A stretch of 64,000 bases of DNA. It comes from Allostella vacuolata (GTDB lineage: Bacteria > Pseudomonadota > Alphaproteobacteria > ATCC43930 > Allostellaceae). How positions within the stretch are numbered: position 1 is the first letter of the stretch; every line of letters starts with the position of its first letter. The position numbers and the translations under genes were made by a program. The notes beneath the pieces are model-generated. The model was not told where the DNA came from, did not search any database, and saw nothing but the letters and a program-made list of their open reading frames with translations. The stretch lies in assembly GCA_006739055.1 (NCBI GenBank), contig AP019702.1:1426501-1490500 (forward strand). Direction: 5' to 3'. Positions 59,426 through 61,069 of the stretch are shown here, piece by piece.

Positions 59426-60556
59426 TCAGATGTAGTGCTCGGCCAGCGGCGGGAAGCCGTTGAAGCCGACCGCCGAGTAGCTGGTGGTGTAGGCGCCGGT
59501 CGCGTGGATCTCGACCTTGTCGCCGATGCGCAGCGCCATCGGCAGCTTGTAGTCGGCCTTGTCGTACAGCACGTCGGCGCTGTCGCAGGTCGGGCCGGCC
59601 AGGACCACCGCCCCGGCCTCGCCGCCGTCGTGCGGGGTGCGGATGCGGTACTGGATCGACTCGTCCATGGTCTCGGCCAGGCCGCCGAACTTGCCGATGT
59701 CGAGGAACACCCAGCGGCGCTTCTCGTTGTAGCCCTTCTCCGAAATCAGCACGACCTCGGACTGGATGATGCCGGCGTCGCCGGTCATGCCGCGGCCGGG
59801 CTCGATGATCAGGCGCGGCATGCGGTTGCCGAAATGATGCTCGACCGCGCGGTTGATCGCGTCGGCATAGGCCTCCAGCGCCGGGATGTCGCGGCGATAC
59901 TGGGCCGGGAAGCCGCCGCCCAGGTTCAGCATGCGCAGCTCGATGCCGGCCTCGTTCAGCTGGGTGAAGACCATCATGGTGCGGCCGATGGCGAGATCCC
60001 ACTGGTCGAGGTCGGTCTGCTGCGAGCCGACATGGAACGACAGGCCGTACGGGTCGAGGCCAAGGTCGCGCGCCTGCAGCATCAGGTCGCGCGCCATCTC
60101 CAGCTCGCAGCCGAACTTGCGGTTCAGCGGCCATTCGGCGCCGGCGCAGTCCATCAGCACGCGGCAGAAGACGCGCGAGCCGGGTGCGGCCACGGCCAGC
60201 TTCTCCAGCTCGGCCCGGCTGTCGAACGCGAACAGGTCGACGCCGCGGGCAAACGCGGCCGCGATGTCCGACTGCTTCTTGATGGTGTTGCCGAACGACA
60301 GGCGCGCGGCCGGCGCGCCGGCCGACAGGCACAGGTCGATCTCCTGGATGCTGGCGGTGTCGAAGCACGAGCCCTTCTCGGCCAGCAGGCGGACGACCGG
60401 GACGGCCGGGTTGGCCTTCACCGCGTAATAGATCTCGGCCCGCGGCAGCAGCCGGTGCAGGCGGTCATAGTTCTCGCCGACCACGTCGAGGTCGACCACG
60501 AGGCACGGGGTAGCGGGCTGCTGATCGCGCAGAAAGCGGCGAATCTTCTCGGTCAT
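59426..60556 (-). CDS. Ornithine (or lysine/ornithine) decarboxylase, fold-type III PLP
   Basis: 376 aa eukaryote-like ODC. The PLP lysine is in [12 protein letters not shown] (about residue 49), with [24 protein letters not shown] and EPGRGM following for phosphate binding. [13 protein letters not shown] near the C-terminus carries the catalytic cysteine and the aspartate that selects ornithine-type substrates. It makes putrescine (cadaverine if it also uses lysine). Start ATG 60556 (MTEKIRRF) has GGGAGGC upstream. It has a long leader with an upstream ORF and three hairpins, suggesting control by polyamine or ornithine. Confidence 0.92.
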
Positions 60557-61069
60557 CGAAACGGCCTCCCAGCCGAATGCGACTGCCCTCGCCCGAGCGG
60601 GCGAGAGTCGAAGCAAAAATCCAACGGTGTTCGATTGGGTGGACCCGCCGCATGCGGGTCCGAAGCGCGCGCGGTATCAGATCCGCGACGCGGTCATACT
60701 CGACGGGAGGACGAATTCGTGCAGCGTGACGACGATGGTCGTCCGACGGGAGCCATGGGGGATGAGAATGTCGGACGACGCGGGGTAACGCGACGCCGCT
60801 CCTCGGCAAACAGCGAACATTGCTACCTCCTCTTGACTGGCCGTCGCCATCGCGGGCTGACGGGGGAAGTACGCCTAACGTCGTTGCTTGTCCTGGAACA
60901 GCCAGGGGCACGTGCGATTGCGCAGGCCGGCTATATAAGCCAAGCGCGCGGAATGAAAAGCGAATTCTGCGCTTCCGGGGGCAGTTTTTCGGCTTGCCGG
61001 ATTCGCCTGCGGGGGCCGGCTTCCGGCCCTCGTTGCGGGGGCGAGTCCCCATGCTATAAGGGCCGCCCC
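60557..61069 (-). promoter_or_regulatory. Structured leader of ornithine decarboxylase and aroQ upstream region
   Basis: About 510 bp between divergent genes. On the minus strand: a promoter-like pair TTTTCA-N16-TATATA (60959-60932), about 100 nt of leader, a 47-aa ORF (60820-60677), then three hairpins before ATG 60556. They are GGACCCGC/GCGGGTCC (60641-60661, 5-nt loop); CCAA-CG/CG-TTGG with a bulged T, followed by ATTTTTG (about 60615-60638), which looks like an intrinsic terminator; and CTCGCCCG/CGGGCGAG (60588-60605). On the plus strand, TTGCGG-N16-TATAAG (61033-61060) could drive aroQ. Confidence 0.55.
60677..60820 (-). CDS. Candidate leader peptide upstream of ornithine decarboxylase, 47 aa
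   Basis: ATG 60820 is preceded by a perfect AGGAGG at 5-nt spacing; the frame runs 47 codons to TGA at 60679-60677, about 120 nt before the decarboxylase ATG. The peptide starts [12 protein letters not shown] and contains [10 protein letters not shown]. In gammaproteobacteria a short arginine-containing leader peptide (SpeFL) controls speF by ornithine-dependent ribosome stalling; this peptide shares the RRTT tetrapeptide with it, which may be chance. The excellent ribosome site in an otherwise noncoding leader is the main evidence that it is translated. Confidence 0.5.

Follow-up and report, generated by a model that had tools for sequence, protein, structure and literature searches.

Introduction

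The alphaproteobacterial speF element (RF00518) has been described upstream of genes for COG0019 decarboxylases of fold type III (PMC1273637). The speF leader has been on record since 2005, and no signal or mechanism has been reported for it (PMC1273637, PMC3766115, PMC7717549). The speF RNA of A. tumefaciens bound none of six metabolites, including ornithine, putrescine and spermidine; homospermidine is not listed among them (Corbino et al., PMC1273637). A better understood leader is that of Salmonella speF, where the 3' end of the upstream open reading frame (uORF) orf34 pairs with the speF ribosome site, the translation of the uORF unfolds this pairing, and the control works partly via Rho-dependent attenuation (PMC6386406). 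TnaC and SpeFL carry a conserved C-terminal peptide motif near the stop codon (PMC8429421).

The locus studied here lies in a Stella genome, in a 64,000-nucleotide stretch of DNA that we call the window. The original prediction for this locus, made from the sequence, was that the ornithine decarboxylase (ODC) gene has an attenuator-like leader with a promoter-like pair, a 47-codon ORF preceded by AGGAGG and three hairpins, one of them terminator-like, and that it could be a separate invention, as the enzyme differs from gammaproteobacterial SpeF. The leader is real and wider in scope than that prediction supposed; the observation behind it was partly confirmed and its interpretation partly supported.

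Results

The ODC locus and its leader in Stella

The best solved relatives of the window ODC in the PDB are lysine/ornithine decarboxylases (5gjm, E=3e-57), and its match to the lysA family falls under the cut-off. Its start codon is the ATG at 60556 on the minus strand, and about 510 bases upstream of it separate it from the divergent aroQ. The main features of the leader are as follows.

59426..60556, minus strand: ornithine decarboxylase gene, fold-type III (COG0019), from the PDB match
60677..60820, minus strand: 47-codon uORF, from the Stella comparison and homologous uORFs in relatives
60826..60831, minus strand: Shine-Dalgarno sequence AGGAGG of the uORF, read from the sequence and conserved in Stella
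60804..60918, minus strand: conserved RNA element (speF-related), from a covariance model match and covariation on 85 homologues
60932..60937, minus strand: putative -10 (TATATA) of the leader promoter, from its conservation in four Stella species

For the comparison within the genus, we used four Stella species including that of the window (the other three leaders are L002-L004). The uORF (ATG at 60820, TGA at 60679-60677) was found exactly where it had been predicted, and its start, Shine-Dalgarno sequence and length are identical in the four species, so that the start codon and the AGGAGG, on whose conservation the prediction had been staked, are both kept. The length of 47 codons is constant despite the variation in length of the neighbouring spacer. 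The predicted promoter-like pair survived in part: the promoter scan of the window leader gave no sigma70-like pair and no -35 at its threshold, but the TATATA at 60937-60932 is kept within the genus, and the RNA element begins about 14 nt downstream of it. The fold of the window leader is more stable than those of its dinucleotide shuffles (z -3.1, 0/100).

A conserved RNA element ends at the uORF start

The original prediction had missed an RNA element upstream of, and overlapping, the start of the uORF; it spans from TCGCACGTGCC at its 5' end to beyond the uORF start codon. A covariance model built from 31 relatives, with Stella left out (R2), matched the window at 60918-60804 on the minus strand with 49 bits (E=8.5e-14), and matched the other three Stella leaders equally well. 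With a model from 38 sequences (R1), the element was found in 41 of 43 genomes of the order and in 42 of 289 genomes of the class, and in a phylum-wide sample of 349 it was confined to genomes of the same class, where it occurs across many alphaproteobacterial families. The RF00518 model gave matches in 11 of the same 289 genomes, with one genome shared with the R1 set. A literature search for the core sequence of the element gave no match.

In 28 of 30 ODC loci fetched from relatives, the block begins with CGCACGTGYC, continues with GCAACGACGT and terminates at an ATG. In the two exceptional loci (L006 and L011), a paralogue comes first and ODC follows it; the leader of L006 (genome G005) is located before that paralogue, and the model search also puts an RNA element just upstream in L011 (genome G006). 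The element has invariant nucleotides around CGCACGUGCC and GCAACGACG, and almost all of the relatives that we looked at keep the uORF start codon at its end. In the genome of the window, the element occurs a second time, before a COG0019 paralogue (G000:C1:2346269-2346384; L105 1501-1616), followed by a uORF of 16 codons, MVATRAGAHASRLGSR, that is nearly identical across the four Stella species. A second copy before a COG0019 paralogue is also present in the other three.

The element is a diverged relative of speF

The Rfam search for the alphaproteobacterial speF motif, suggested with the original prediction, gave no RF00518 match to the window at E<=1, none in the relatives at the gathering score, and none at E<=10 in L003, L005, L012, L024 and L030. 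We count this as a limit of the model and not as evidence against homology. In the other direction, R1 recovered 10 of the 11 RF00518 loci at the right place and on the right strand, nine of them with E-values, to be read as rough ones, of 2.7e-6 to 0.07. The shared blocks of the RF00518 loci and the window-type leaders align by eye, and the ODCs behind the RF00518 loci are 56-61% identical to that of the window. The window leader lies where speF has been described to lie, upstream of a COG0019 ODC in an alphaproteobacterium, and it has the parts of the Corbino description, a conserved 5' block, a basal stem and a long bulged stem-loop of about 80 nt, with covariation in helices 3, 4 and 5. 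Judged by these sequence comparisons, the window leader belongs to a branch that has diverged from the catalogued speF leaders of alphaproteobacteria, and it falls outside RF00518 in the Rfam definition, because the homology to RF00518 loci is there and the Rfam gathering score is not reached.

Like the RF00518 leaders, those of the window branch occur in the same bacterial class before the same family (COG0019 ODC), and are built of the 5' block CGCACGUGCC, a stem, GCAACGACG, and a U-rich arm paired to a GAGG arm. Unlike them, they escape the Rfam model, have a short P1, precede genes that include homospermidine synthase, and end in an AUG that opens a uORF or the gene itself; in the RF00518 loci that we inspected, no comparable uORF start could be seen. 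The idea of a separate invention for a different enzyme does not hold for alphaproteobacteria, where RF00518 speF precedes the same fold-III COG0019 enzyme, and the contrast with speF is thus limited to gammaproteobacteria.

By eye, the RF00518-matched leaders L031-L041 share a conserved hairpin, GCGYCUCCANCGCG, between the speF element and ODC. Its loop, UCUCCA, is complementary to GGAGA-type ODC Shine-Dalgarno sequences, which suggests, from base complementarity, that these leaders may sequester a Shine-Dalgarno sequence too.

The element is predicted to pair with the Shine-Dalgarno sequence of the uORF

The covariation of the leader across relatives, the search for which had also been suggested, was found when 85 matches of the element were aligned with fitting to the structure (alignment A3). 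Two parts of this structure in the window are listed here.

60892..60906, minus strand: 5' hairpin CCUGG/CCAGG, counterpart of helix 3 (P1), from helix 3 covariation
60865..60871, minus strand: UACUUCC arm pairing with the uORF Shine-Dalgarno sequence, counterpart of helix 4, from covariation and fold probability

In A3, the five-helix structure has 89% of its cells paired, and sliding it along the alignment leaves far fewer. Double changes were seen in 19 pairs versus 10.1 in shuffles, and in 99 cells versus 22.4, and none of 500 shuffles reached the observed value on any measure. In an unfitted MAFFT alignment (A1), the covariation score was no higher than in shuffles and the pair counts were modestly above them, and the pairs that RNAalifold predicted from the MAFFT alignment were mostly invariant and showed no covariation; the stronger result thus depends on the model-fitted alignment. 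Support is strongest for the 5' hairpin, the apical hairpin and the helix UCCUUUU/GAGAGGGA, in which GAGAGGGA is the Shine-Dalgarno sequence of the AUG that follows the element. Helix 3 has double changes in 5 of 6 pairs, and the Shine-Dalgarno-pairing helix 4 in 6 of 8. The outermost stem is nearly invariant, and both sides of a candidate GCAAC/GUUGC pairing after the AUG are too invariant for covariation to show. As read from the sequence, the pairing arm of Stella has a shifted register, UACUUCC/GGAGGUA, and in the predicted fold the pairing probability of the uORF Shine-Dalgarno sequence is about 0.8 in all four species.

The element precedes genes of polyamine synthesis

Among the genes after the 85 elements, ODC was found in 46 cases and its COG0019 paralogue in 29. 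Two further elements (L075 and L094) are followed by the paralogue, homospermidine synthase and ODC in a row, and homospermidine synthase comes directly after the element in four (L120, L131, L154 and L149; the identity of one of the four was checked against solved structures, E=1e-133). The uORFs before homospermidine synthase in these four have 14-16 codons. This association with polyamine genes ties the RNA element to polyamine synthesis. In eight loci (L070, L086, L112, L114, L119, L121, L129 and L134), the AUG of the element is in frame with the decarboxylase itself. As this occurs in several lineages, the element can gate translation on its own. In L115 (1501-1614), the frame that starts at the element AUG runs into a class I glutamine amidotransferase, which is not among the known polyamine genes, and in L140 (1522-1633) this AUG starts a 136-codon frame of unknown family.

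The uORFs before ODC often end in a serine motif with one rare codon

The uORFs before ODC usually have 30-60 codons, and those before the paralogue 8-33, mostly 8-16. No description of a uORF for the speF leader was found in our searches of the openly accessible literature.

60738..60779, minus strand: hairpin GUCGUCCGAC/GUCGGACGAC within the uORF, with a variable loop sequence, in four Stella species
60695..60703, minus strand: motif Ser-Ser(AGU)-Met (TCG AGT ATG), where ribosomes may pause, from cluster statistics

In the largest clade of relatives, where the uORF has 36 codons, pN/pS is 0.36, with the other frames above 1, and it falls to 0.25 in the last 16 codons, where the constraint is strongest; judging from these substitution ratios, this uORF is clearly coding. 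In the four Stella uORFs, no purifying selection on the peptide was seen (pN/pS 1.31), and the variable sites are spread evenly over the codon positions. What is retained in Stella are RNA features: a 10-bp hairpin within the uORF, which the original prediction had missed, a hairpin loop that contains the stop codon, and the arm at the 3' end. The GUCGUCCGAC/GUCGGACGAC stem is kept in all four while its loop varies. The Stella uORF is thus constrained as RNA and not visibly as peptide, and because its peptide shows no purifying selection, it may be important for its RNA rather than for its product.

The uORFs of the ODC type often end in [S/T]-Ser-[M/I/L/Q], and the second serine is almost always encoded by AGU, while the first uses all six codons. 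[S/T]-AGU was found within the last ten codons in 13 of 26 peptide clusters, versus 0.93 expected from the shuffling of each uORF's own codons, and is absent from about half of the clusters. Elsewhere in the same uORFs, AGU makes up 5 of 1602 codons, and among the serine codons of seven genes of the window it was seen once (1/82). From this rare codon, we infer that ribosomes may pause at the motif. Regulation through a well-placed uORF, the core of the original prediction, is thus favoured by the conservation of the start codon where the element ends and by the shared rare-codon serine motif before ODC.

The 3' end of the uORF is predicted to cover the ODC ribosome site

The original prediction had also missed a long-range pairing between the 3' end of the uORF and the ODC ribosome site.

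60693..60710, minus strand: arm CCUCCCGUCGAGUAUGAC in the uORF 3' end, partner of the ODC ribosome site, from folds and shuffles
60565..60583, minus strand: partner arm GUCGCAUUCGGCUGGGAGG with the ODC Shine-Dalgarno sequence GGGAGG, from folds and invariant in Stella
60641..60661, minus strand: hairpin GGACCCGC/GCGGGUCC between the two long-range arms, with compatible changes in Stella
60588..60605, minus strand: hairpin CUCGCCCG/CGGGCGAG just 5' of the ODC ribosome site, from the Stella comparison by eye
60615..60638, minus strand: terminator-like CCAAU/GUUGG followed by U5, judged not functional, absent in L002-L004

Folded to minimum energy, each of the four Stella leaders contains the helix between 60710-60693 and 60583-60565. 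Its duplex beats 484-497 of 500 shuffles (3 to 16 of 500 reach it), and in L004 it carries one change, from U-G to C-G. Both Shine-Dalgarno sequences, of the uORF and of ODC, are thus predicted by folding to be hidden in Stella. When a ribosome footprint was masked in silico on the AGU codon of the Stella leaders, the accessibility of the ODC Shine-Dalgarno sequence rose from 0 to 0.25-0.59. With footprints at the uORF start, at codons 10 and 20 and at the stop it stayed at 0 to 0.01, and with one at codon 30 at 0, except for 0.2 in one species. In this model, among the footprints tried, only a ribosome on the AGU motif would clearly free the ODC site. The pairing is patchy in other families, clear in Stella and a few others and not general, which implies a different partner or role for the AGU motif where it is lacking.

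The spacer between the uORF and ODC is about 120 nt long. Two of the three predicted hairpins were borne out in it: GGACCCGC/GCGGGTCC (60661-60641) exists and has a pairing-preserving stem change in L004 (GGATCCG/CGGATCC), and CTCGCCCG/CGGGCGAG (60605-60588) exists too, the other Stella leaders keeping, by eye, a hairpin with entirely different letters at this site. The terminator-like stem and U-run (CCAAT/GTTGG and T5, 60638-60615) are present in the window sequence but absent from the other three Stella leaders, and the terminator scan of the window leader found none. Since this stem is not conserved, the predicted attenuation of transcription at an intrinsic terminator is unsupported, the leader having no conserved terminator of this kind.

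Discussion

The anatomy of the leader points to control at two translation starts. In our preferred reading, to which we give a probability of about 0.6, this diverged speF branch acts mainly on translation, through an RNA gate on the translation of the uORF, a pause at the serine motif with AGU, and the resulting translation of ODC. The 5' RNA element would fold and pair with the Shine-Dalgarno sequence of the first AUG, a structure supported by comparison, and this gate would be shifted by some signal related to polyamines, which might be homospermidine or the polyamine pool; we infer both the ligand and the direction of the response. In most ODC leaders, the AUG would then open a uORF of 30-60 codons, which often ends in [S/T]-Ser(AGU), where its conserved sequence with a rare codon suggests that the ribosome probably pauses. 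In Stella, the 3' end of the uORF is predicted to pair with the ODC ribosome site. Standing on the AGU motif, a ribosome would displace this arm and ODC would be translated, and with the uORF untranslated or quickly finished, ODC would stay off. A broader version, in which the gate serves a polyamine regulon (ODC, its paralogue and homospermidine synthase) throughout the class and senses, for example, homospermidine, with the AGU-pausing uORF as a second sensor that opens the ODC site, is put forward tentatively, and we rather doubt it.

The layout is strikingly similar to that of Salmonella orf34-speF. The SpeF ODC of gammaproteobacteria belongs to a different fold family from that of the window, and the orf34/speFL leader is not known to contain anything like the conserved 5' RNA element. 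As in Salmonella orf34 and E. coli speFL, a short uORF precedes ODC, and as in orf34-speF its 3' end would pair with the ODC ribosome site, which is predicted in the four Stella species and not in general. The window uORF encodes a peptide different from those of orf34 and SpeFL, and a role of Rho is on record for orf34. SpeFL has a conserved arginine motif, which the RRTT of the window peptide resembles; RRTT occurs in the window species only, with CRAT or RRAT in its congeners. On the sequence comparison, a separate origin from the SpeFL/orf34 leader is likely. As in TnaC and SpeFL, a conserved C-terminal motif lies near the uORF stop; unlike in these ribosome-arrest leader peptides, one rare codon, AGU, is nearly fixed in the window leader family.

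Could the uORF nevertheless be a true arrest peptide like SpeFL, with ornithine sensed in the exit tunnel, so that stalling and not codon pausing drives the control? The strong constraint on the peptide in the 36-codon clade, greatest towards its C-terminus, would fit, as would a C-terminal serine motif that is common to families and whose first serine uses all six codons. However, the Stella peptide is not visibly constrained, the context of the motif varies between families, RRTT is not conserved in the genus, and the paralogue uORFs are mostly of 8-16 codons and unrelated, and we regard this explanation as unlikely. We give a slightly better, yet still modest, chance to the 5' element being a classical polyamine riboswitch, for example for homospermidine, that gates the first AUG, with the uORFs as passive relays or evolutionary extras. 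The invariant nucleotides around CGCACGUGCC and GCAACGACG, the covarying Shine-Dalgarno-pairing helix, the AUG that shares its frame with the decarboxylase at loci such as L070, L112, L114 and L121, and the link to three polyamine gene families including homospermidine synthase speak for a riboswitch, but it leaves the end motif of the uORF unexplained, and the A. tumefaciens relative bound no ligand tested, homospermidine not being among them (PMC1273637).

Rho-dependent or intrinsic attenuation, in which translation of the uORF shields the leader from transcription termination, has a precedent in Salmonella orf34, which partly works so (PMC6386406), and the long uORF with its spacer of about 120 nt before ODC also speaks for it. 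The terminator-like stem is not conserved, however, and the spacer is structured and GC-rich, which makes such a mechanism improbable. That the uORF is a non-functional ORF in a leader with incidental structure would agree with the missing peptide-level constraint in Stella, but is hardly credible given the independent model match, the breadth of occurrence, the covariation and the motif statistics.

The window branch gives three new handles on the speF leader: the start codon that forms part of the element, the genes behind it, which point to polyamines including homospermidine, a compound that the reported ligand tests do not list, and the conserved motif with its one rare codon at the end of the uORF. 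With these three, the mechanism of the speF leader becomes directly testable. The layout suggests how many alphaproteobacteria may control polyamine synthesis and, if true, a uORF would be known to control ornithine decarboxylase in a second system, laid out as in Salmonella and probably of independent origin.
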